From: Bacillota bacterium
GTDB taxonomy: Bacteria > Bacillota > Halanaerobiia > B1SED10-174
Assembly (NCBI GenBank): GCA_007122335.1
Contig: SKTZ01000008.1
Coordinates: 1 to 53,439, forward strand
Direction of reading: 5' to 3'
Length of the DNA stretch: 53,439 nucleotides
Part shown: positions 24,191 to 38,766 of the stretch, piece by piece
Position numbering within the stretch: position 1 is the first letter of the stretch
Layout: every line of letters starts with the position of its first letter
Notes under the pieces: generated by a model
What the model was told of the DNA's origin: nothing
The model's database searches: none
The model's input: the letters and a program-made list of their open reading frames with translations, nothing else
Position numbers and translations under genes: made by a program

Positions 24191-24765
24191 TGGCCAGGTA
24201 TGAAATCAGGCTAAGCGGGGCAGGAGGTCAGGGTTTGATCCTTGCAGGGATCATATTATCCGAAGCTGTGGTCAGGTTTACCGATAAGGAAGTTGTTCAG
24301 ACCCAGTCTTATGGGCCTGAAGCCCGCGGAGGAGCCAGCAAGGCGGAAGTAATCATTTCCGATGAAGAAATAGACTACCCCCAGGTTAATAAACCGGATT
24401 TTCTCCTGGCCTTAACCCAGGAAGCATATAACAAATATAACCGGGACCTCAAGGAATACGGGATAATGGTAGTGGATGAGAGAGTAGATATTGCCATGCG
24501 TGGTGGTCCAACTTACGTCGTGCCAATCCAAAAGTTAACCCAGGAAAAACTGGGAACGAGGATGGTTGTTAATGTAGTTTCTCTTGCCCTTTTCAATAAA
24601 CTTCACGAAGTAGTAGAAACAGAGAAATTGAGAGAAGTGGTTCTGGAGAGAGTCCCCAGGGGAACCGAGGATTTAAACAAAAAAGCTCTGGAACTTGGTG
24701 AAGAACTGGCGGAGAACCTGAACCAATACAAAATTAAAAGCAAGGAGGAGGAAGAAGAAGAATGA
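24190..24765 (+). CDS. korC: 2-oxoglutarate:ferredoxin oxidoreductase, gamma subunit
   Basis: The 191-residue gamma subunit has the family start ([20 protein letters not shown]) and [19 protein letters not shown] near residues 39-57, a signature of CoA-binding gamma domains of 2-oxoacid:ferredoxin oxidoreductases. It completes the four-subunit enzyme. The C-terminus is a short run of glutamates. The ATGA junction with the mutase gene couples the two enzyme systems in one operon. Confidence 0.92.
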
Positions 24766-26429
24766 AAGACAAGGACCGGCAGGAAAAAATTCAAGAGAAT
24801 CTAAAAAAATGGCGAGAAGGTCCTTTTGCAAAGTTCCAGCAAAGAGGTTGGAATGAAGCCTTTACCTCCTATCGGGAACCGGTAAAAGAAATCTATACTC
24901 CGCTGGATTATTCTGATGACGAATACCTGGAAAAGGCGGGTTTTCCAGGTCAGTATCCTTTTGTTCGGGGGGTTTACCCAACTATGTACCGGGGACGTCC
25001 CTGGACAATGCGCCAGTACGCAGGATTTGCCAGTGCTGAAGAATCCAATCGCCGTTATCGCTACCTTCTGGAGCAAGGGCAGACTGGACTTTCAGTTGCC
25101 TTTGACCTGCCAACACAGATTGGACTTGATTCAGACCACCCCCTTGCTGATGGAGAGGTAGGTAAGGTCGGGGTTCCCATTGACTCCCTGGCTGATATGG
25201 AAATTCTTTTTGACCAGATTCCTCTGGATAAGGTCAGCACTTCCATGACAATTAATTCTCCTGCAGCAGTACTTCTGGCCATGTATATAGCCCTGGCAGA
25301 AAAACAGGGGGTTTCAGCTGATAAATTAAAGGGTACCATTCAAAATGATATTTTAAAAGAATATTTTGCCCGCGGTACTTATATTTTTCCTCCGGGTCCA
25401 TCTTTGCGTTTGATTACAGACATATTTGCTTATTGTTCCCGGGAATTACCGAACTGGAATACAATCAGTATTTCCGGTTACCATATCAGGGAAGCAGGAG
25501 CGAATGCTGTGCAGGAACTCGCTTTTACCCTGGCTGACGGAATAGCCTATGTAAAGGCTGCTCTCCAGGCCGGATTGAAAGTGGATGAATTTGCTCCCCG
25601 GCTTTCTTTCTTTTTCAATGCTCAGATGAACCTTCTGGAAGAAGTGGCAAAATTCCGGGCCGCCCGCAGGTTGTGGGCAAAAATCATGGAGGAAAAGTTT
25701 GGAGCAGAGAATCCCAAGAGCAAAATGCTTCGCTTTCACACCCAGACTGCAGGGGCTTCTTTAACTGCTCAGCAGGCGCAAAATAATATTGTTAGGGTTA
25801 CCATCCAGGCCCTGGCAGCAGTTTTGGGGGGAACGCAATCTTTGCATACCAATTCCTATGATGAAGCATGGGCTCTGCCAAGCGAGGAATCGGTGCGGAT
25901 TGCTCTGCGGACCCAGCAAATCATTGCCAGTGAAAGCGGTTCAACTTCAACTGTTGATCCCCTGGGAGGATCTTATTATGTGGAAAGCCTTACTGATGAT
26001 ATTGAAAAGAGGGTAGAAGAGTACCTAGAAAAAATTGAAGAAATGGGCGGAATGGTAAAAGCAATTGAAAAAGGTTATGTGCAACGAGAAATCCAGAAAA
26101 GCGCATATGAAATGCAGAAAAGAGTTGAAAGACAGGAAGATATTGTGGTAGGGGTTAATAAATACGCCCAGGAAGAACCTTCTCCTACTGATCTTCTTGA
26201 AGTTGATCCCCAGATGGAAAAAGAACAGATTAAAAAATTAAAAAATACCAGGGCAAAAAGAGACGAAAAAGAAGCTCAAAAAGCACTGGAGCAGCTTAAG
26301 AAAACAGCCCAAGAAGATGAAAATCTTATGCCAGCAATAATTGATGCAGTTAAAGCTTATGCAACACTCGGGGAAATTTGTGATGTCCTGCGTTCAATTT
26401 ACGGTGAGTACCAGGCTCCCACATTTTAA
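24762..26429 (+). CDS. mutA: Methylmalonyl-CoA mutase, large (catalytic) subunit
   Basis: The enzyme interconverts succinyl-CoA and (R)-methylmalonyl-CoA using adenosylcobalamin. The 555-residue chain is the TIM-barrel substrate domain without its own B12 domain. Substrate-specificity residues can be read: RQYAG (Tyr86) and YFARGTY (Arg204) align with Tyr89 and Arg207 of Propionibacterium methylmalonyl-CoA mutase, whereas isobutyryl-CoA mutases have Phe and Gln. [13 protein letters not shown] and [11 protein letters not shown] are also conserved. The gene overlaps korC by 4 nt, so its succinyl-CoA probably comes from KorDABC. The cofactor-binding subunit is encoded next. Confidence 0.93.
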
Positions 26430-26446
26430 AGTTAGGAGGCAGAAAC

Positions 26447-26845
26447 ATGGGCGAGAATAAGATTAGAGTATTAATTGCCAAACCGGGTCTTGACGGGCAT
26501 GACCGTGGAGCTAAAGTTGTGGCACAGGCCTTAAGGGATGCGGGCATGGAAGTTATCTATACGGGTCTTCGCCGAACTCCAGATCAGATTGTTTCCGCTG
26601 CAGTTCAAGAAGATGTTCAGGTAATTGGCCTGAGTAGTCTTTCCGGAGCCCACAACCACCTCTTCAAAAAAGTTGCAGAACTGCTCCAGGAAAAAGGACA
26701 CGAAGATATTCTGCTGATTGGAGGAGGAATTATTCCAGAGAAAGATAGAAAACAACTGGAGGATGTTGGGTTTGATCGGATTTTCTCTCCTGGCACTTCA
26801 ACAGAAGATATCGTTTCCTATATAAAGGAAAAGGTAAATGGGTAA
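26447..26845 (+). CDS. mutB: Methylmalonyl-CoA mutase, cobalamin-binding small subunit
   Basis: This 132-residue B12-binding domain has the DxHxxG motif at Asp16-Gly-His18-Asp-Arg-Gly21, where His18 is the lower cobalt ligand. The SxL motif (GLSSLSGAH near residue 65) and the GG motif (LIGGGIIP near residue 87) complete the site. A separate small subunit is common in anaerobes and archaea. The ribosome site is AGGAGG. The end overlaps meaB by 8 nt. Confidence 0.94.
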
Positions 26846-27788
26846 TCAGGTAAATGAACTGGCCCGGGGAATAATTGCTGGTGAAGAAAAAGCCCTTGCT
26901 AAAGGTCTAACCTTTATCGAAAATAGAAAAAGTGGTTACCGAGAACTTCTTGATTCCATTTACCCCGAGGTCAGGTCCTGTCCAATCTGGGGCCTTACTG
27001 GAGCTCCAGGGGTGGGTAAAAGCACCATTACTAATTATCTGGTAGATAGTTTGGCCAACAGGTCTGAGAGAATTGGGGTCATTGCCGTAGATCCGACCAG
27101 TCCCTTTTCCGGAGGAGCCATTCTCGGAGATCGGGTTCGAATGATGGACTTGGCTGGAAGAGAAGGGATCTTCATTCGCAGCATGGCTTCCCGAGGCGCC
27201 TTGGGTGGGCTTAGCCCTGCAATAATGGACGCAGTTTCTTTGTATCAAGCCTTTGGAGTTGATAGGATCCTGGTGGAAACCGTTGGTGTGGGCCAATCGG
27301 AAACAGATATTGTATCTCTTGCTGATACTGTAGCAGTAATAATGATGCCCGGGACAGGAGACGATGTTCAAACTATTAAGGCTGGTTTACTGGAAATCGG
27401 CGATATTTTTGCCGTAAACAAGGCTGATCTGGAGGGAGCGGAAACTCTCGCGGGATTATTGCAAAGTATGCTTTCTTCCCGGAATGGGGATGAAAAATGG
27501 GTCCCTCCTGTAATTAAGCTGGTTGCCAGCCAGGGGCAGAATCTTGATACCCTGCTTGAGAAATTTCTGGATCACCAGAAGAGCCTTGAAAAATCAGGCC
27601 AGAAAGAAAAGAAAGAAAAAATGAGAAATGAAATGGCCCTAAAAATGCACCTACAGGCTCGCTTTCAGGATCTATATCTGGGGCCGCTTCTGGGAACAGA
27701 AGACTGGGAAAAGGCTATTAAATCTATTAACAGGCGGGAAAAATCACCTGCTTATTGGGCAGAAAAATTGATTTCCAGGAGTGATTAA
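26838..27788 (+). CDS. meaB: MeaB/ArgK-type G-protein chaperone of methylmalonyl-CoA mutase
   Basis: MeaB is a GTPase that loads and protects adenosylcobalamin on the mutase. The P-loop GAPGVGKST spans residues 55-63, with [15 protein letters not shown] near 85-99, [13 protein letters not shown] near 177, and the G4 motif NKAD near 194. The length of 316 residues is normal. The 8-nt overlap with the small mutase subunit gene and the direct vicinity of the large subunit make the assignment firm. Confidence 0.95.
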
Positions 27789-27789
27789 A

Positions 27790-28182
27790 ATGCATATAGA
27801 CCACATTGGTATTGCTGTATCCAATATTGAAGAGGCGGCGAAAGTTTATAATCTTATGGGTTTGGAAATTGTAAATATTGAAGAGGTTCCTTCCCAAAAA
27901 GTCCGGGTTGCCATGTTACCACTTGGGGAAAGCAAGATCGAACTATTAGAGCCAACTGACCCGGAAAGCCCCATTCAGAAATTCCTGGATAAAAAAGGGA
28001 GCGGAATTCACCACCTTGCTGTTTCCGTTGATGATGTGGCAGCCGAACTGGATAAATTAAAAGAACAAGGAATCAGGTTGATTAATGAGGAACCTGTTCC
28101 CGGGGCCGGGGGGGCCCTGATTGCCTTTGTCCACCCCAAGGAAACCCAGGGAGTTTTATTAGAATTATGCCAGCATGAGTAG
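27790..28182 (+). CDS. mce: Methylmalonyl-CoA epimerase
   Basis: The enzyme interconverts (R)- and (S)-methylmalonyl-CoA, joining the mutase to the decarboxylase. The 130-residue protein is a glyoxalase/VOC fold with metal-binding residues in HIDHIGIAV at the start, GIHHLAVSVDDV near residue 75, and LLELCQ at the end. ATG 27790 is favoured over GTG 27781 because AGGAGTG at 27776-27782 is spaced 7 nt from it. Confidence 0.94.
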   Translation: MHIDHIGIAVSNIEEAAKVYNLMGLEIVNIEEVPSQKVRVAMLPLGESKIELLEPTDPESPIQKFLDKKGSGIHHLAVSVDDVAAELDKLKEQGIRLINEEPVPGAGGALIAFVHPKETQGVLLELCQHE

Positions 28183-28194
28183 AGGAGAGTGAGT

Positions 28195-29742
28195 ATGAAA
28201 GCAAAAAAAGGAGAAACCCTGCAGTCACTTAAGGAAAGGGCTAAACTTGGCGGGGGTAGTGAAAAAATAAAATCCCAGCATGAAAAAGGGAAGTTAACAG
28301 CCCGACAGAGGTTGGAAAAACTGCTTGATCCTGATTCTTTTATGGAAATTAACCTTTTTACTGCTCACAGGTCAACAGATCTAGGAATGGAAGGCCGGGA
28401 AGTTCCGGGAGAAGGGGTAGTAACAGGTTCTGGGACGGTTAACGGACAACTGGTATTTGTTTTTGCCCAGGATTTCACTGCAATGGGGGGAACTCTTGGA
28501 GAAGCTCACGCAAAAAAAATAGTAAAAATAATGGATCTGGCCCTGGAAAATGGAGCTCCGATAATTGGTTTGAATGATTCAGGAGGGGCAAGGATTCAGG
28601 AAGGCGTGGATGCCTTGGACGGCTATGGGGATATTTTCTACCGCAATACAATTGCCTCTGGAGTTATTCCCCAGATTGCTGCAATCCTTGGCCCCTGTGC
28701 CGGAGGAGCGGTTTATTCTCCAGCTCTCATGGATTTTACTTTTATGGTGGAAGGAATAAGCCAGATGTTTATAACCGGTCCTCAGGTAGTGAAAGCCGTT
28801 ACAGGGCAGGAAGTCTCTCCTGAAGAACTGGGTGGAGCAGCAACTCACAATCAGCTCAGTGGAGTTGCCCACTTTAACAATGCTGATGAAGAATCCTGCT
28901 TGAATGCTATCCGGGAATTATTGAGCTATTTACCTGCAAACAATATGGAAAATCCACCCGAAACCCAAACCGAAGAACCACCTGCTCCAGGACCTCAGGG
29001 GATTAGGGATATTGTTCCTGAGGATCCCAAGCGACTATATGATATGAAAGAGGTAATAAGGCTGATAGTCGATGGGGGCTACTTTTTTGAAGTCCATCCC
29101 TATTTTGCCCCGAATATTATTGTTGGTTTTGCCCGCCTGGGTGGAAAATCTGTAGGAATAGTTGCCAATCAACCCAAAGACAAAGGTGGAGTTTTAGATA
29201 TTGATTCCTCTGATAAAGCTTCGCGTTTTATCAGGTTTTGTGATGCTTTCAATATTCCCCTGGTTAATCTGGTGGATGTTCCGGGTTATCTTCCGGGAAC
29301 CGAACAGGAATATGGGGGTGTAATTCGCCACGGGGCGAAACTTCTCTATGCTTATTCCGAGGCTACAGTTCCCAAGGTAACTTTAATTGCTCGTAAGGCC
29401 TACGGAGGGGCTTTTGTGGCCATGTGTAGCCAGGCTCTGGGGGCAGACTTTGTTTTTGCCTGGCCTAACGCGGAAATTGCTGTTATGGGGCCTGAGGGAG
29501 CGGCAAACATAATTTACCGGAAAGAAATTAAAGGGGCAGAAAATCCTGAAGAAGTAAGGCAGGAAAAAATAAAAGAATATCGGGAACTTTTTGCCAATCC
29601 CCTTGTGGCAGCCAGGCGGGGTATGGTTCACGATATCATCGAATATGAAGCAACCCGGGCCCGTTTAATTTATTCCCTGGACCTTTTATCCTGCAAAAAG
29701 GTTTCCCGGCCGCCCAGGAAACACGGTAATTTTCCGGTTTAA
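28195..29742 (+). CDS. mmdA: Methylmalonyl-CoA decarboxylase alpha subunit (carboxyltransferase)
   Basis: This 515-residue carboxyltransferase moves CO2 from (S)-methylmalonyl-CoA to biotin, giving propionyl-CoA. Both crotonase-like halves are visible: GLNDSGGARIQEG near residues 124-136 with GPCAGGAVYSPAL near 166, and DVPGYLPGTEQEYGG near 361 with ARKAYGGAFVAM near 400. The family also includes propionyl-CoA carboxylase beta subunits. The three following genes are pump subunits, so MmdA is the better reading. ATG 28195 is chosen because GAGGAG at 28182-28187 fits it; an in-frame GTG at 28189 is too close. Confidence 0.92.
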   Translation: MKAKKGETLQSLKERAKLGGGSEKIKSQHEKGKLTARQRLEKLLDPDSFMEINLFTAHRSTDLGMEGREVPGEGVVTGSGTVNGQLVFVFAQDFTAMGGTLGEAHAKKIVKIMDLALENGAPIIGLNDSGGARIQEGVDALDGYGDIFYRNTIASGVIPQIAAILGPCAGGAVYSPALMDFTFMVEGISQMFITGPQVVKAVTGQEVSPEELGGAATHNQLSGVAHFNNADEESCLNAIRELLSYLPANNMENPPETQTEEPPAPGPQGIRDIVPEDPKRLYDMKEVIRLIVDGGYFFEVHPYFAPNIIVGFARLGGKSVGIVANQPKDKGGVLDIDSSDKASRFIRFCDAFNIPLVNLVDVPGYLPGTEQEYGGVIRHGAKLLYAYSEATVPKVTLIARKAYGGAFVAMCSQALGADFVFAWPNAEIAVMGPEGAANIIYRKEIKGAENPEEVRQEKIKEYRELFANPLVAARRGMVHDIIEYEATRARLIYSLDLLSCKKVSRPPRKHGNFPV

Positions 29743-29754
29743 GGAGGAAGAGAA

Positions 29755-30081
29755 ATGCCTGATTTAACTGCTGGTTGGGAAATAATAATCCTCGGGACGG
29801 GGACCGTTTTTGTTGCTTTAATATTCCTTGGCCTGGTAGTTGTGGGATTAGAGAAAATTTTTGGACCTAAAACCCCTCCCCCGGCCCGGGATGAACACCT
29901 TACCGGGCAAGATGAGGAGGAAAAAACTGAACCACCGATCGCAGCAATAACTGCTGCTATTCATGCTTACAGGGGCGATGACAGGTTTAAGATAATTAGG
30001 GTCAGCCATCGTGGTGAAGAGTGGGCCCGGAGGGGCCGTCAGGAACTTATTAATAATAAACCAGAATGGAAAGGAAGTTAA
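29755..30081 (+). CDS. mmdD: Na+-pump decarboxylase gamma-type (OadG) subunit
   Basis: The 108-residue protein has one N-terminal membrane helix (about residues 9-33, ILGTGTVFVALIFLGLVVVG), a Pro/Glu-rich linker and a short basic C-terminal region. This is the layout of OadG/MmdD subunits, which hold the biotin carrier and carboxyltransferase to the membrane subunit. IAAITAAIHAYRG near residues 63-75 is widely conserved in the family. The ribosome site is AAGGAGGAAG. It lies between mmdA and mmdC as in other pump operons. Confidence 0.85.
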   Translation: MPDLTAGWEIIILGTGTVFVALIFLGLVVVGLEKIFGPKTPPPARDEHLTGQDEEEKTEPPIAAITAAIHAYRGDDRFKIIRVSHRGEEWARRGRQELINNKPEWKGS

Positions 30082-30089
30082 GACCAGGC

Positions 30090-30473
30090 ATGAAAAAATA
30101 CAGAATTAGAGTAAATGGTGAGGAATACGAGGTTGAGGTTGAGGAAATCAAGGAAGGCGGAGAAAAGCAAACCTCTTTTGTTGAAAAATCCCCTGTTTCT
30201 TCTGCCCCTGCTGCTCCAAAAACTCAGGAAAAAAAGAAGGCAGTGCAGAGTAGTGGCATACCCGGAGAAGTAAAGGCACCCATGTCCGGAAAGGTTTTGA
30301 AAGTAACCGTAAAAACAGGGGATGAAGTTACCAAAGGTCAGGTGCTTATGATCCTCGAAGCGATGAAAATGGAAAACGAAATTACCGCGAACGCTGATGG
30401 GAAAATCAAAGAAATTAAAGTAAATGAGGGAGCTTCCGTTAATCCAGGAGATATTCTTGTAATTTTGGAGTAG
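30090..30473 (+). CDS. mmdC: Biotin carboxyl carrier subunit of methylmalonyl-CoA decarboxylase
   Basis: The 127-residue protein carries biotin on Lys93 in EAMKMENEI within a C-terminal lipoyl/biotinyl domain (about 57-127). A Pro/Ala-rich swinging linker (about 33-55) precedes it, and the N-terminus begins MKKYRIRVNGEEYEVEVEEI. I start at ATG 30090 because this matches the family start; an in-frame ATG at 30066 lies within mmdD and would add eight unusual residues. It shuttles carboxybiotin from MmdA to MmdB. Confidence 0.93.
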   Translation: MKKYRIRVNGEEYEVEVEEIKEGGEKQTSFVEKSPVSSAPAAPKTQEKKKAVQSSGIPGEVKAPMSGKVLKVTVKTGDEVTKGQVLMILEAMKMENEITANADGKIKEIKVNEGASVNPGDILVILE

Positions 30474-30484
30474 GGGGAAAATTA

Positions 30485-31615
30485 ATGGAACTTGCAATAG
30501 ATAGTTTCTGGCAGAGCACAGGTTTTGCCAATATGACCTGGCAGCAAATGGTTATGGTTGCAGTGGCCGGGGTTCTGTTATATCTTGCGATAAAGAAAAA
30601 ATATGAACCTCTTTTGCTCATCCCGATCAGTTTTGGGGTAATAATGGTCAATTTACCCCTGACCGGAATTATGGCCCCACCCCAGGGGGGTGAGGTAGGG
30701 GGTTTGCTTTATTACCTTTACCAGGGAACCAGTCTGGGTATTTATCCCCCCCTTATTTTTATTGGGGTTGGAGCCTGGACGGATTTCGGCCCTCTGCTGG
30801 CCAATCCAAAAACCATGTTGCTCGGTGCAGCAGCCCAGTTTGGGATTTTCACCACCATTTTGGGCGCTCTTGCGGTGGGTTTTCAACCCTTTCAAGCTGG
30901 AGCAATTGGGATAATAGGCGGGGCAGATGGGCCAACAGCTATTTTTACTGCAGCGAATCTGGCCCCGGAACTTTTGGGGCCGATAGCTGTTGCAGCGTAT
31001 TCTTACATGGCCCTGGTTCCTGTAATCCAGCCGCCCATAATTAAATTATTAACCAATGATACCGAACGAAAAGTTAGAATGGGCCAGTTAAGAGAGGTTT
31101 CTCAGAAAGAAAAGATAATTTTTCCTGTTGCCGTAACCATTCTAACAGGCTTACTTATTCCCGCCTCAATTCCCTTAATCGGTTCTTTAATGTTTGGTAA
31201 CCTTTTGAAGGAATCCGGTGTGGTTGACCGGTTACTGCAAACGGCCCGGGATTCTCTGGTTAATATAGTAACCATCTTTTTGGGCCTTACTGTTGGAGCG
31301 ACTGCAACTGCGGAAAATTTCCTTGTTTGGGAAACAATCCAGATTATTTTGTTGGGCCTCTTTGCCTTTTCAGTTGGTACTTTTTCAGGGGTTGTTTTGG
31401 GCAAAATTATGTACAGGTTGACCGGAGGGAAAATCAACCCCCTTATTGGTTCCGCCGGTGTATCTGCGGTTCCAATGGCAGCCCGGGTCAGCCAAAAACT
31501 TGGTTTAGAAGCGGATGGAGACAATCACCTTTTAATGCACGCCATGGGACCTAATGTGGCCGGTGTTATTGGTTCGGCCGTTGCCGCTGGGGTAATATTA
31601 TCTCATTTTGGCTAG
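30485..31615 (+). CDS. mmdB: Na+-translocating methylmalonyl-CoA decarboxylase, beta membrane subunit
   Basis: This 376-residue integral membrane protein has about nine to eleven helices and decarboxylates carboxybiotin while exporting Na+. The ion-binding aspartate appears as Asp148 in GGADGPTAIF, corresponding to the essential aspartate of Klebsiella OadB. GLTVGATATAENFL and GSAGVSAVPMAARV are further signatures. It makes decarboxylation energy-conserving and argues that the operon runs toward propionyl-CoA. GGAGTAGGGGG precedes the ATG. Confidence 0.94.
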   Translation: MELAIDSFWQSTGFANMTWQQMVMVAVAGVLLYLAIKKKYEPLLLIPISFGVIMVNLPLTGIMAPPQGGEVGGLLYYLYQGTSLGIYPPLIFIGVGAWTDFGPLLANPKTMLLGAAAQFGIFTTILGALAVGFQPFQAGAIGIIGGADGPTAIFTAANLAPELLGPIAVAAYSYMALVPVIQPPIIKLLTNDTERKVRMGQLREVSQKEKIIFPVAVTILTGLLIPASIPLIGSLMFGNLLKESGVVDRLLQTARDSLVNIVTIFLGLTVGATATAENFLVWETIQIILLGLFAFSVGTFSGVVLGKIMYRLTGGKINPLIGSAGVSAVPMAARVSQKLGLEADGDNHLLMHAMGPNVAGVIGSAVAAGVILSHFG

Positions 31616-31696: not shown

Positions 31697-32944
31697 ATGG
31701 AAGAAAGTCTTAACGTCTATGAAATTGTTCAACAGCAGCTAGCAGTAGCGGCTCGGGAACTGGACTTAGATCCAGGAGTGCATGACCTTTTAAAAGAACC
31801 GATGCGCGTTTTCACCTGTTCAGTTCCGGTAAGGATGGATGATGGTTCTGTAAAGGTTTTTACCGGCTATCGCTGTCAGCATAATGATGCTCTTGGACCG
31901 ACCAAAGGGGGACTTCGTTTCCATCCTGATGTTGCAATGGATGAAACAAAAGCCCTTGCTGCCTGGATGACCTTTAAATGCGCCCTTGTTGGAATACCAT
32001 ATGGTGGGGGTAAAGGTGGAGTTCAGGTTAATCCCAAGGAACTCTCCCGCAGGGAGATCGAGAGATTGTCCCGTAACTTTATCCGTGCCCTTGCTCCAAT
32101 AGTTGGTCCGGATAAAGACATTCCTGCTCCTGATGTTTATACCAACCCCCAGATAATGGCCTGGATGATGGATGAGTATAGCCAGTTAAAAGGGGTAAAC
32201 GTTCCAGGGCTTTTAACCGGTAAACCGATTATTCTGGGTGGTTCTGAAGGCCGTGAAGAAGCCACTGCTCGTGGTTGTGTAATCGTGGTGCGGGAAGCTG
32301 CAAAAGCAATTGGCATGGACCTTAACGGAGCAACAGTTGTAATACAGGGTTATGGAAACGCAGGAAGCGCTGCCGGACGCCTCTTAAAAGAGCTCGGAGC
32401 AAAAATTATTGCAGCTAACGATTCTTCCGGAGGAGTTTATAACCCCGATGGGTTTGATCCCGTTGAATTGAAAGAACATAAGGAGCGAGTGGGCTCAGTA
32501 AAGGGCTTCCCCGGCTGCAACGAAATCTCCAATAAGGACCTGTTAGAATTAGAGTGTGATATTCTGATTCCGGCAGCCCTGGAAAATGTAATTACTACCA
32601 AAAATGCTGCTAACATAAAGGCCAAAATAATTGGGGAAGCAGCAAACGGACCGACAACTCCTAAAGCAGATGAAATTCTTGATGAAAAAGGAGTTCTGGT
32701 TCTTCCCGATATTCTGGCCAATGCTGGTGGAGTTACCGTTTCCTACTTTGAATGGGTCCAGAACCTGATGAATTTTTACTGGGCAGCTGACGAAGTGAAA
32801 GAAAAGCTGGAAAAAATAATGGTCAAGGCTTTCAAAAATGTATACAATTCCTACCTTGAAAATGATGTTAACATGAGAATAACTGCATATATGGTTGCAA
32901 TAAAACGCCTTGACGAAGCAATGCGACTCAGGGGCTGGGTATAA
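31697..32944 (+). CDS. gdhA: Glutamate dehydrogenase
   Basis: The enzyme deaminates glutamate to 2-oxoglutarate and ammonia with NAD(P)+, or the reverse. The 415-residue sequence is of the hexameric short type. The substrate region is GPTKGGLRFHPDV with the catalytic-lysine region KCALVGIPYGGGKGGV near residues 95-110. The Rossmann motif is VIQGYGNAGSAAG near 215, and ANAGGVTVSYFEWVQN near 341 is conserved. Cofactor choice is not clear by eye. It is the last gene before the terminator at 32952, so it is probably cotranscribed with kor, mut and mmd and feeds 2-oxoglutarate to KorDABC. Confidence 0.94.
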   Translation: MEESLNVYEIVQQQLAVAARELDLDPGVHDLLKEPMRVFTCSVPVRMDDGSVKVFTGYRCQHNDALGPTKGGLRFHPDVAMDETKALAAWMTFKCALVGIPYGGGKGGVQVNPKELSRREIERLSRNFIRALAPIVGPDKDIPAPDVYTNPQIMAWMMDEYSQLKGVNVPGLLTGKPIILGGSEGREEATARGCVIVVREAAKAIGMDLNGATVVIQGYGNAGSAAGRLLKELGAKIIAANDSSGGVYNPDGFDPVELKEHKERVGSVKGFPGCNEISNKDLLELECDILIPAALENVITTKNAANIKAKIIGEAANGPTTPKADEILDEKGVLVLPDILANAGGVTVSYFEWVQNLMNFYWAADEVKEKLEKIMVKAFKNVYNSYLENDVNMRITAYMVAIKRLDEAMRLRGWV

Positions 32945-33974: not shown

Positions 33975-35156
33975 ATGTCTTCCAATGGGAAATTTTTGTT
34001 TACCTCTGAATCAGTAACTGAAGGGCACCCGGATAAGATTGCTGACCAGATCAGCGATAGTATTTTGGATGAAATAATTAAGGATGATAAAATGGCCAGG
34101 GTAGCCTGTGAAACCCTTGTAAACACGGGCTTAATCATGGTTGCAGGTGAAATAACAACATCCTGTTATGTGGATATTCCCAGGGTTGCCAGAGAAACTG
34201 TTAGAGAAATTGGGTATACCCGGGCCAAGTATGGGTTTGATTGTGATACCTGCGCGGTATTAACCTCAATTGACGAACAATCTCCAGATATTGCCCAGGG
34301 AGTTGATCGAGCTCAAAACGGGGAGGATCATGAGATCGGGGCAGGTGACCAGGGTTTAATGTTTGGGTTTGCCTGCGATGAAACCCCTGAACTAATGCCC
34401 CTTCCCATTATGCTCAGCCACAAAATTGCTCGCAGACTAGCCTGGGTTCGAAAGAATGGTGTAATTCCCTATCTCAGGCCCGACGGGAAAACCCAGGTAA
34501 CCATTGAATATGGACCGGGAGGTCCTGAAAGAATCCACACGGTTGTTGTTTCAGCCCAGCACCACCCTAAGGTTGAGAACGAGCAACTCCACCAGGATAT
34601 TATCCAGGAAGTGGTTGACCCAATAATTCCCGATAATTTGAAGAATGAAAAAATGCTTTATTATGTTAATCCCACAGGTCGATTTGTAATTGGGGGGCCC
34701 CAGGGTGATGCTGGCCTTACTGGTAGGAAGATAATTGTTGATACCTATGGAGGATATTCAAGACATGGCGGAGGAGCTTTTTCCGGGAAGGATCCAACCA
34801 AAGTTGACCGTTCTGGTTCGTACGCAGCAAGATATGTTGCGAAAAATATTGTTGCTGCTGGACTCGCCAAAAAGTGCGAGGTGCAAATTGCTTATGCAAT
34901 CGGTGTTGCCCGGCCGGTATCCATATTCGTTAATACTTTTAACACGGGAACTATAAGCGATGGGCAACTGGAAAAACTGGTTCGGGAAAATTTTGACCTC
35001 AGACCGAGTAAGATTATAAAAGATCTTGATCTTCTCCGTCCTCTTTACCGTCAGATAGCAGCATATGGGCACATGGGCAGAGAAGACCTGGATTTACCCT
35101 GGGAGAAAACTGACAGGGCAAAGGATTTGAAGGACCAAGGAGGGCGACAAATCTAA
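33975..35156 (+). CDS. metK: S-adenosylmethionine synthetase
   Basis: MetK makes S-adenosylmethionine from methionine and ATP. The 393-residue protein has [19 protein letters not shown] at residues 10-28, [20 protein letters not shown] near 121-140, [14 protein letters not shown] near 242, and the P-loop-like [16 protein letters not shown] near 263. No SAM riboswitch consensus is visible upstream; the nearest promoter is before sfsA. The start ATG abuts the sfsA stop. Confidence 0.97.
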
Positions 35157-35157
35157 A

Positions 35158-37326
35158 ATGGTTCCCAAAGTGGCCGAAGTTATTATTGATATTTCCCATG
35201 GAGAAGTGGACCGGGTTTTTGACTATTCGATACCTTCTTGTTTTTGCAAACAGATTAAACCTGGCTGTAAAGTTCGTATTCCCTTCGGCCGCGGTTTAAG
35301 GGAAGGATTTGTCTGGAGATTAAAAGAAAAAAGCGAAATTAAAAAAATAAAACCAGTTACGGATGTTTTGGGTGAACCCATCCTTAATTCAACCCAACTT
35401 AAACTTGTTGAATGGCTGGTTAATAATTATTTTTGCTTCCACATTACTGCTCTGGAAGCTGTTGTTCCACCTGAAATAACCCGGGAAGCGGTTCCTAAGG
35501 AATCCCGGGTTTATAAATTGTTCCCCGATCAGGATATTGAATTGGGGAAGGCTGTGAAACAAAAGGCTGTTTGGGAGTATTTGAACTCCGTTAATTATCC
35601 CCCACTAAAAAAAGAAATTGAAAGAGAAGCTGCAACCAGTTCTTCAACAATAAGTGCTATGGAAAAAAAAGGTTTGTTAGAAGTAAGGAGGTTAATTTCC
35701 GGGAAAGATCCGCTTTCACCTCGCCCGGATAAACCAGAAGCTTTTCCCAGCGGTGAGGTTGGGCAAAAGAGACTGGGCTTAAACTCTGAAAAGCCCATTG
35801 TTTTTCATTTTGGGGCCGGAGAAAATGTTTGGCAAATTTATTTTTCTCTTGTTGAAAATAAAATTAAACAGGGCCAAAGTGTAATATTGTTAGTACCCGA
35901 AGCTCAATTGGCTGATCGGGTTGGGGAAATGCTTGTTAAATATTTCCCCGCAGAAACCTTGGTGCTCCATAGTGATCTTGCTCCCCGGGAACGCTATGAC
36001 CAATGGTGGAAGTGCAAAAAAAATGGGCCCGTTGTTCTAGTAGGGACAAGGTCGGCAGTTTTTTCTCCCGTTGCAAACCTGGGGTTAATGATAATTCACA
36101 ACGAAGAAGATGAAGCCTATCGCCAACAGGAAAATCCCCGCTATATTACAGCGGAGGTAGCCAGAGAAAGAGTTAATCTTGAAGGTGGGGAATTACTTTT
36201 ATCCTCGGCAAGTCCCTCCCTGAATTCTTTTTATGGAATCAAGAAGAAAGAATTAATTTACAGGGAAAGCCCCGCTCTTAAAACAGGGGAAACCGGAGTC
36301 GAACTGGTGGATATGCGGGAAGAGTTTAGCAAGGGAAATGTAAGCATCTTCAGTCAGAAAACCCAATCCCAACTCCAGGAATTGACAGAAAGAAAGAAAA
36401 ATAAAGTTTTCCTTTATGTAAACCGCAGGGGGTATGCACCCTTTATCCTCTGCAGAAGCTGTGGTTTTGTTGCTCGGTGTGAAAATTGCAATAGGGCTAT
36501 GACCTTCCATAAGGAAAACAATATTCTTTACTGTCATCGCTGTAAGAAAAAACAAAAGTCCCTGCAGGTCTGTCCTGAGTGCGAAAGCAAATATATCAGG
36601 TCGTTGGGAATAGGAACAGAAAAAGTTTCCGAAGAAATAAATAAATTATTCCCTGGATTGCGGCAGGTTATTGTTGATTCTGATCGGGTTAAAAACCTGG
36701 TTCAACTGGGAAAAATTTCAGGAGAAATTCAAAATGGGAAGTGGGAAATTGTTATTGGGACCAGGTTAATGTTAAAAGAATTTTTCCCCCTTTTTGATGC
36801 GGGTGTTATGGTAATGGCAGATACTCAACTGAACCTGCCGTTTTATGATTGCCAGGAAGATTTATTTCATCTGATTAATGCCAATTTGCGAAGAGTCAGG
36901 GACGGAAACCTTTTAATCCAGACTTACAACCCCGATAACGCTACACTGCGGCTTGCTGCGAAAAACGACTGGAGAGAGTTTATGAAGAAAGAGCTTGATT
37001 TCAGGGAGGAATTTAATTATCCTCCTGTTACCCAGTTTCTGGTTTATATCCTTTCGGGGAATTCTGAAAAGGAAGTTTCTCAAAGCGCCAGGAGACTTGC
37101 CAAAGAAATTGCATTTTTTGCCCGCAGGGGAGATTTGGAAATGATAGGACCCGCTCCTGCTTACTTCTCCGAGGAAAGAGGAAAATACAGATGGCAGATA
37201 TCCTGTCGCAGTTCAAATCGAGATGTTTTCCGGGAAATGGTAAATAAAACCAGTCCAATTACAAGGGAGCTAATCAGGGATAACATTGGGGTGAACCTTG
37301 AACTTAATCCAAAGGGAATGTTATAA
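35158..37326 (+). CDS. priA: PriA-like primosomal protein N' with inactivated ATPase/helicase motifs
   Basis: PriA restarts replication at stalled forks. The 722-residue protein keeps the N-terminal DNA-binding domain (about 1-105), LVGTRSAVFSP near 299, and all eight zinc cysteines (Cys432, 435, 441, 444, 459, 462, 472, 475). The motor motifs are lost. Where PriA has GSGKT, residues 221-225 read GENVW. Where it has Walker B DEEH, residues 314-317 read HNEE. The GRAGR segment is replaced by NLRRVR near 576-581. The frame is open throughout, so this is not simple decay. Actinobacterial PriA is also reported to lack helicase motifs. The neighbours metK, def and fmt are those of ordinary clostridial priA, so this is the orthologue, probably a helicase-dead adaptor. 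Confidence 0.9.
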   Translation: MVPKVAEVIIDISHGEVDRVFDYSIPSCFCKQIKPGCKVRIPFGRGLREGFVWRLKEKSEIKKIKPVTDVLGEPILNSTQLKLVEWLVNNYFCFHITALEAVVPPEITREAVPKESRVYKLFPDQDIELGKAVKQKAVWEYLNSVNYPPLKKEIEREAATSSSTISAMEKKGLLEVRRLISGKDPLSPRPDKPEAFPSGEVGQKRLGLNSEKPIVFHFGAGENVWQIYFSLVENKIKQGQSVILLVPEAQLADRVGEMLVKYFPAETLVLHSDLAPRERYDQWWKCKKNGPVVLVGTRSAVFSPVANLGLMIIHNEEDEAYRQQENPRYITAEVARERVNLEGGELLLSSASPSLNSFYGIKKKELIYRESPALKTGETGVELVDMREEFSKGNVSIFSQKTQSQLQELTERKKNKVFLYVNRRGYAPFILCRSCGFVARCENCNRAMTFHKENNILYCHRCKKKQKSLQVCPECESKYIRSLGIGTEKVSEEINKLFPGLRQVIVDSDRVKNLVQLGKISGEIQNGKWEIVIGTRLMLKEFFPLFDAGVMVMADTQLNLPFYDCQEDLFHLINANLRRVRDGNLLIQTYNPDNATLRLAAKNDWREFMKKELDFREEFNYPPVTQFLVYILSGNSEKEVSQSARRLAKEIAFFARRGDLEMIGPAPAYFSEERGKYRWQISCRSSNRDVFREMVNKTSPITRELIRDNIGVNLELNPKGML

Positions 37327-37354: not shown

Positions 37355-37819
37355 TTGGCCATAAGACCGGTAAGGACGATGGGTGATCCTGTTTTAAAAA
37401 GCAAGTGTAGCCCCATAAAAAAAATTGATGAAAGCCTTAAAAGGCTAATAAAAGATATGGCGGATACCATGTATGATGCTCCGGGTGTTGGGCTTGCCGC
37501 GCCTCAGATTGGAGTTAATAAACAGGTAGTAGTTTACGATATTGGTGAGGGATTGGAAGTTATTTTAAACCCGGAAATATTGGAAAGTGGTGAAGGGGAA
37601 GAAGGAGCAGAGGGTTGTTTAAGCGTGCCTGGAGAAGAAAGGGCGATAAAAAGGGCAAACTGGATAAAGGTTAGAGGACTTGATCGCAATGGGGAAAAAT
37701 TAGAAAAAGAATTTTCGGGTTTTGCAGCAAGAGTTTTGCAACATGAAATTGATCATCTTCAGGGTAAATTGATTGTCCAGAGAGGAAGACCCCTGCCAAA
37801 AAAGGAGATTGAGGACTGA
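37355..37819 (+). CDS. def: Peptide deformylase
   Basis: Def removes the formyl group from new proteins. All three metal motifs are present in the 154-residue protein: GVGLAAPQIG near residues 44-53, EGCLSVPG near 86-93, and QHEIDHLQG near 129-137. The TTG start follows TGAGGTGG at 37341-37348. Its last base is shared with the fmt start ATG, matching the usual def-fmt coupling. Confidence 0.95.
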   Translation: MAIRPVRTMGDPVLKSKCSPIKKIDESLKRLIKDMADTMYDAPGVGLAAPQIGVNKQVVVYDIGEGLEVILNPEILESGEGEEGAEGCLSVPGEERAIKRANWIKVRGLDRNGEKLEKEFSGFAARVLQHEIDHLQGKLIVQRGRPLPKKEIED

Positions 37820-38766
37820 TGAGGGTTTTTTTTGCAGGCACCCCTGATTTTGCGGTTCCTTCTCTAAAGTTTTTAGCAGCAGATCAAGAAACAGAAGTCG
37901 TTGGAGTTTTTTCTCAGCCTCCTCGCCCCCGGGGTAGGGGGCAGAAGACCAAACTGACGGCGGTTTCTCAGACAGCAAGAGAACTAAATCTCCCTCTATA
38001 TCAAGTTAAAAATATTAATAGCAGGGATAATCTTGATTTTATTGCTGAAAAAGAGGCGGATTTTCTTGTTGTTGTGGCTTTTGGGCAGAAAATTAGCGGG
38101 GAATTATTAAATATTTGTAAAAATGGTGCCGTTAATCTTCATGCGTCAATGCTTCCTAAATACAGGGGGCCAAATCCCATTCAGCGAGCAATCTTAAACG
38201 GGGACCGGGAAAGTGGTTTAACTACCATGTTAATGGATGAAGGCTGGGATACCGGTCCGATTTTAATGCAAAAAAGTATTCCCATTGAAAATGATGACAC
38301 CTTGGGAAAGCTCCATAATAAAATGGCTGAAGAAGGAGCACCTCTTCTTTTAAAAACTTTGAAATTATTCAATACTGGAAAGATAAATCCCCAAAAACAA
38401 TCAGGCCAACCTGTCCATGCCCCCAAGCTAAAACAGGAAGAAATTTACCTTGATTGGGAAAAGGATGCGGAAAATTTGGAAAGAAAGTTAAGAGCCTTGA
38501 ATCCTTTTCCTGTTGCCAGAACTTATTACAGGGGAGAGGAATGGAAAATCTGGAAGGGAGAAGTATTGAATAATATTCCTGGATATCAACCCGGGCAGTT
38601 CAAGGTTATTAATGAAGAAATTGTAGTTCAAACAAAAAATGAGGCCCTGGGAATTTTAAAGCTCCAAAGGCCCGGGAAAAAACCCTTGCCTTCAGGGGCT
38701 TTTCTGCGGGGCTATCCTCTGGAAGATGGGGACCGGTTTGGGAGAAGGGGCGAGAAAAATGGATGA
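37819..38766 (+). CDS. fmt: Methionyl-tRNA formyltransferase
   Basis: Fmt formylates initiator Met-tRNA with 10-formyl-tetrahydrofolate. The 315-residue chain has MRVFFAGTPDFAVPSL at the start, the catalytic NLHASMLPKYRG near residues 104-115, and EGWDTGPIL near 141. The residues after KYRG are PNP where AAP is commonest. The C-terminal tRNA-binding domain extends from about 205. It overlaps def by one base and the next gene by 8 nt. Confidence 0.95.
   Translation: MRVFFAGTPDFAVPSLKFLAADQETEVVGVFSQPPRPRGRGQKTKLTAVSQTARELNLPLYQVKNINSRDNLDFIAEKEADFLVVVAFGQKISGELLNICKNGAVNLHASMLPKYRGPNPIQRAILNGDRESGLTTMLMDEGWDTGPILMQKSIPIENDDTLGKLHNKMAEEGAPLLLKTLKLFNTGKINPQKQSGQPVHAPKLKQEEIYLDWEKDAENLERKLRALNPFPVARTYYRGEEWKIWKGEVLNNIPGYQPGQFKVINEEIVVQTKNEALGILKLQRPGKKPLPSGAFLRGYPLEDGDRFGRRGEKNG

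Follow-up and report, generated by a model that had tools for sequence, protein, structure and literature searches.

A PriA protein with an erased helicase motor, probably an ATP-independent fork-binding platform, and the recurrent loss of the PriA motor in Bacillota

The priA gene of the window (the whole stretch of 53,439 nucleotides analysed here) encodes a full-length PriA that has lost helicase motifs I, II, V and VI, and we consider it highly likely that its product is a pseudohelicase that would recognise replication forks and serve as a DnaB-loading platform independently of ATP, with fork binding and loading without ATP proposed from the precedent of studied PriA proteins. This agrees with the core reading of an earlier note on this DNA, namely that PriA has been retained for a non-motor role while its motor was selectively erased; the single copy of the gene, purifying selection, the family-wide loss of the motifs and the domain-wise pattern of retention all speak for that reading. 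Motor loss of this kind also recurs elsewhere in Bacillota, on branches separate from that of the window organism.

Translation of positions 35158-37326 (+) yields an intact open frame of 722 codons, and the product matches PriA in sequence and domains over its full length, both as the earlier note had it. The protein scores 376.8 bits against TIGR00595 (cut-off 230), its best NCBIfam match is a general PriA model (2.8e-155), and the Pfam models PriA_3primeBD and PriA_C lie above their cut-offs. The Zn-ribbon Pfam model falls just below its own (25.3 vs 26), and all eight zinc cysteines that the note had reported are found in the alignment (C432, C435, C441, C444, C459, C462, C472 and C475). 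An AlphaFold2 model built on an alignment of 30 relatives (pLDDT 84, pTM 0.82) has only PriA structures as its best PDB matches (6dgd, 8fak, 6dcr and 4nl4, with E about 1e-48 and TM up to 0.76-0.79), and according to this model the protein keeps the PriA fold. The gene occupies the normal priA locus, as had been supposed, with the order metK-priA-def-fmt corresponding to the orthologous locus of relatives in a synteny comparison. The window genome (G000), a draft assembly of 157 contigs that is 97.8% complete, contains one PriA-like gene, as does each of the five other genomes searched from its family (f1; four of the same genus and one of a second genus). A second, paralogous priA was found neither in G000 nor in these five genomes, so that the gene is not a paralogue beside a canonical copy, an outcome that the earlier note had left to be checked.

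The motifs were read from an alignment of the window protein to 24 canonical PriAs of the same class, which replaced a regular-expression check that gave many false alarms (e.g. DEEQ, TASGKT). The alignment bears out, in residues and coordinates, the three replacements described earlier (GSGKT by GENVW at residues 221-225, DEEH by HNEE at 314-317 and the arginine motif by NLRRVR at 576-581), and adds to them the loss of motif V. Canonical PriA of Halanaerobiia and other Bacillota shares with the window protein the orthologous locus, domain order, zinc region and fold, but it carries GVTGSGKTE, DEEH, GTQMIAKGHD and GRTGR. The window protein thus lacks the features of an active SF2 3'-5' helicase (Walker A GxxGxGKT, DEEH, motif V and motif VI) and presents those of a pseudohelicase, with the catalytic motifs gone and the rest conserved and under selection.

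Table 1. The priA pseudohelicase, its domains and former motor motifs, and the adjoining genes (positions in the window).
Feature	Position	Strand	Remark
metK, upstream of priA	33975..35156	+	Relatives show the same order
priA pseudohelicase	35158..37326	+	722 aa plus stop; sole PriA of the window genome
3' DNA-binding domain (residues 1-104)	35158..35469	+	PF17764, 7e-22; 8/8 canonical-conserved residues retained in motor-less lineages
Former motif I / Walker A (residues 218-226)	35809..35835	+	FGAGENVWQ in place of GVTGSGKTE; GENVW (221-225) opposite GSGKT
Former motif II / Walker B (residues 314-318)	36097..36111	+	HNEED in place of DEEHE; E316 alone retained
Former motif III (residues 349-353)	36202..36216	+	SSASP in place of GSATP
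Cysteine-rich zinc region (residues 432-475)	36451..36582	+	8/8 cysteines present
Former motif V (residues 534-546)	36757..36795	+	GTRLMLKEF-FP in place of GTQMIAKGHDFP; one residue deleted
Former motif VI / arginine motif (residues 574-583)	36877..36906	+	NANLRRVR with deletion, in place of QVAGRTGRG; NLRRVR = 576-581
PriA C-terminal domain (residues 623-718)	37024..37311	+	PF18074, 3e-10; conserved
def, downstream of priA	37355..37819	+	
fmt, downstream of priA	37819..38766	+	

At first every other member of the class was taken to be canonical, but that view drew on the 24 relatives with the highest scores, a biased sample, and was overturned by a survey of 398 genomes of the phylum. A strict Walker A pattern for PriA was present in 311 of these, leaving 87 that did not match; 56 of the 87 were searched, together with relatives of two, and their PriA genes were then read. 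Most of the PriAs read are canonical with small variants, and complete loss of the motor was found in 37 genomes belonging to five groups: six in the window's family f1, 11 in genera g3 (L125) and g9 (L135, L163, L183-L190) of family f2, three in f117 (L165, L249, L250), 16 in f114 and f160 (L178, L179, L253-L266) and a single one in f157 (L243). Genus g9 is very probably Halanaerobium, including H. praevalens and H. hydrogeniformans, and genus g13 of the same family f2 has a canonical PriA, unlike g3 and g9. The PriAs of f117, f114/f160 and f157 have lost motifs I, V and VI, and many members of f114 keep the DE of motif II. As a separate observation, one Bacillota genome, G334 (L166, L180), carries a pair of PriA-like genes, and the P-loop is intact in each.

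The number of separate losses was assessed on two trees. A RecG tree of 20 genomes places f1 and f2 apart, with the canonical genome G016 inside f2; given its strongly supported branches, two changes are the minimum, and a single change suffices in no bootstrap tree. A PriA tree, made by a quick method with the motif columns removed and with SH-aLRT support only, shows four changes, of which at least three are forced by its starred branches. The PriA tree puts f117, f114/f160 and f157 close together on weakly supported branches, so that they may represent anything from one to three events. The Halanaerobium-type loss is separate from that of f1 and lies on a different branch, and, gene transfer aside, the regain of four motifs is not credible. 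From these phylogenies we estimate at least three losses of the motor in Bacillota, and five are likely. The parallel loss that the earlier note had anticipated for a Bacillota lineage is thus supported, but it is not confined to the lineage of the window, having occurred independently in f2 and in at least one further group.

To describe what the motor-less proteins have in common, we took the columns conserved in 45 canonical PriAs and counted a column as retained when it was kept in at least four of the five motor-less groups. Retention is 8/8 in the 3' DNA-binding domain, 14/17 in the zinc region and 9/10 in the C-terminal domain, against 21/50 in helicase lobe 1 and 24/57 in lobe 2; the winged helix, with 0/3, is not specially conserved. 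The first three regions together (31/35) differ from the helicase lobes (45/107) with a Fisher p of 1.2e-6, a value to be read with the caution that the columns depend partly on one another and that each group consists of related sequences. The lost columns concentrate at motifs I, II, V and VI, and E316, the third position of DEEH, is retained though its catalytic neighbours are lost. Residues kept in nearly all motor-less lineages include E316, W283, GTRSA, NRRG, the zinc cysteines and the YPP of the C-terminal domain. On balance we favour the view that the motor has been lost three times or more, probably five, within Bacillota alone, and that the residues retained nearly throughout outline a motor-independent core of PriA, the surface that would recognise the fork and pass DnaB on to the loader.

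In this reading, the 3' DNA-binding domain, the C-terminal domain and the remnants of the helicase lobes would let the window protein bind branched DNA resembling a fork, and the protein, with its zinc region, would be the platform where a loader of the DnaD-DnaC(DnaI) type reloads DnaB, with neither ATP hydrolysis nor unwinding of the lagging arm by PriA itself. Clearing of the lagging strand, if required, might fall to an ordinary helicase (PcrA/UvrD-type or RecG, both present) or to DnaB, and the expected price would be poorer restart where the lagging arm is duplex. The platform reading draws on two precedents, the loading of DnaB by ATPase-dead PriA of E. coli and the fork binding and DnaB contact of D. 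radiodurans PriA. In E. coli, Walker A substitutions (Lys230Ala, K230R) remove ATPase activity while the primosome is still assembled (PMC10175261, PMC4504706), and the Lys230Ala protein loads DnaB (PMC10175261); each of these is one laboratory substitution in a motor otherwise intact, whereas the motor of the window protein is erased. PriA of D. radiodurans neither hydrolyses ATP nor unwinds DNA, but it binds single-stranded DNA and forks and interacts with DnaB (PMC4504706). Like the window protein, it is a complete PriA whose Walker A and B motifs are non-functional and whose DNA-binding parts are retained (PMC4504706). It differs in that its Walker A lysine has become arginine and its motifs I and II match poorly, whereas the window protein, from a different phylum, has no trace of a P-loop and has motifs V and VI destroyed as well, with deletions.

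Actinobacterial PriA, which is reported to lack helicase motifs, was the precedent offered by the earlier note. It has been described as "smaller and very divergent" (PMC1193525), and the likeness holds insofar as both are divergent PriAs. The window protein is probably not of the actinobacterial type, because its match to the PRK14873 (actinobacterial-type) models, at 8e-54, lies far below that to the general PriA models, and the D. radiodurans pseudohelicase is the better-tested precedent (PMC4504706).

The genes for the presumed partners are present in the window genome, where the dnaD-dnaC-dnaB operon is intact and the loader has the P-loop GPVGSGKT and the Walker B sequence IIDDLG; G005 has the same three genes. 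The three genes form a compact operon in f1 (L119:3577-6969, L122:212-3624). DnaD-type proteins are present in f1 (except in the 57%-complete G003), f2 and f117, and a PF07261 search found none in f114/f160 or f157. DnaD was therefore rejected as a common correlate of motor loss, since a DnaD loader that goes unfound by PF07261 in two of the five motor-less groups is not a common denominator. Within the samples compared, DnaD-type proteins occur in motor-less members of f117 (G307, G442, G443) and not in five canonical relatives (G445, G446, G449, G450, G212).

Unwinding might instead be supplied in trans by another motor, such that a pseudohelicase and a partner helicase together replace PriA. 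We think this rather unlikely, although it would be compatible with the platform reading as an addition to it. Candidates exist in f1, which has RecG with intact motor motifs and helicases of the UvrD family. The same helicases are found in canonical-PriA relatives, however, and no gain accompanying the loss of the motor was seen, so that a second restart helicase gained with the loss was rejected. Restart in E. coli, moreover, needs no unwinding by PriA, the ATPase and helicase activities being dispensable for PriA-PriB restart in vivo (PMC10175261). Given that E. coli PriA without ATPase activity still loads DnaB, the conclusion of the earlier note that some other protein would have to act as the restart helicase is not a necessary one.

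The near relatives of the window organism are metagenome-assembled genomes labelled Halobacteroidaceae or Halanaerobiales bacterium, with the isolate names T1Sed10 and B1Sed10, and the window organism is closely enough related to belong to this group as well; a contig scan with the single window protein gave no matches, and a scan with the family alignment then found them. In a soda-lake study, the names B1Sed10 and T1Sed denote sediment data sets of high salinity, and Tanatar-1 and Bitter-1 were salt-saturated (PMC6146748). Salt adaptation was considered as a cause of the motor loss and rejected, as G017 (L012), taken as the halophile Acetohalobium arabaticum, retains the motifs. All six f1 genomes, down to 40% identity, have lost motifs I, II, V and VI within intact frames, and their zinc cysteines are invariant. 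The former ATP pocket might have become a new site, with the protein now binding other DNA structures in a role outside restart, and the HNEED-like word (HNEE[DN]) at former motif II, which is fairly conserved in f1, would fit such a change of function. We regard it as improbable, given that the sequence at the former Walker A loop varies within f1 and that the locus, the single copy, the fold and the conservation of the 3' DNA-binding and C-terminal domains are those of an ordinary PriA.

Between the window and L031, the one unsaturated pair in f1, the dN/dS of priA is 0.148 overall and about 0.10 across the old motifs, and it is far below 1 in every domain. The corresponding values are 0.11 for fmt, 0.065 for def and 0.044 for metK, and priA diverges faster than these neighbours. 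Elsewhere, pairs of canonical PriA give 0.08-0.12 and motor-less pairs of the Halanaerobium type 0.12-0.30. PriA of f1 is thus constrained, slightly less than active PriA. The somewhat higher value and the faster divergence are what one would expect if the motor were drifting and priA were becoming a pseudogene, and relaxed constraint may account for part of the change. The constraint itself speaks strongly against plain decay, as do the frames kept intact in all six genomes, one of them just 40% identical, the invariant zinc residues, and a motor loss that is old, with the gene retained in every lineage found; we therefore hold simple decay to be quite improbable. The earlier note had made the outcome depend on selection and on close relatives, and both the purifying selection (about 0.15) and the loss across the whole family fall on the side of a retained function. 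Apart from the draft state of the window genome nothing suggests an artefact of sequencing, assembly or binning, which is excluded for practical purposes by the same destroyed motifs in intact frames in the five further f1 drafts, by single-contig genomes of another branch and by the syntenic locus.

Almost all bacteria keep the PriA helicase, though laboratory mutants without it survive. The repeated erasure of the motor in natural lineages whose PriA is still under selection indicates that motor loss is possible in the wild, and its recurrence suggests that the essential function of PriA lies in marking the fork and loading the replicative helicase, and not in unwinding DNA. Motor-less lineages separate the residues for unwinding from those for fork recognition and loading, and cultured strains of Halanaerobium make the question testable. 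PriA pseudohelicases as such are already known; as far as our literature search shows, what is new is how deep the erasure goes, that it recurs, and that it occurs in Bacillota, probable Halanaerobium among them. For PriA in Halanaerobium, the literature matches listed were genome or food papers by title, in a search that lay outside most subscription journals.

Two further features of the window lie upstream of priA. At 24762-31615, genes for a methylmalonyl-CoA mutase, a carboxyltransferase and the beta and gamma subunits of a Na+-transporting decarboxylase are clustered, as for a sodium-pumping methylmalonyl-CoA decarboxylase. The glutamate dehydrogenase at 31697-32944 is nearest to an archaeal-type NCBIfam model, at 603 bits and below the cut-off of 750, and it is 95-97% identical within the genus, changing much more slowly than its neighbours.
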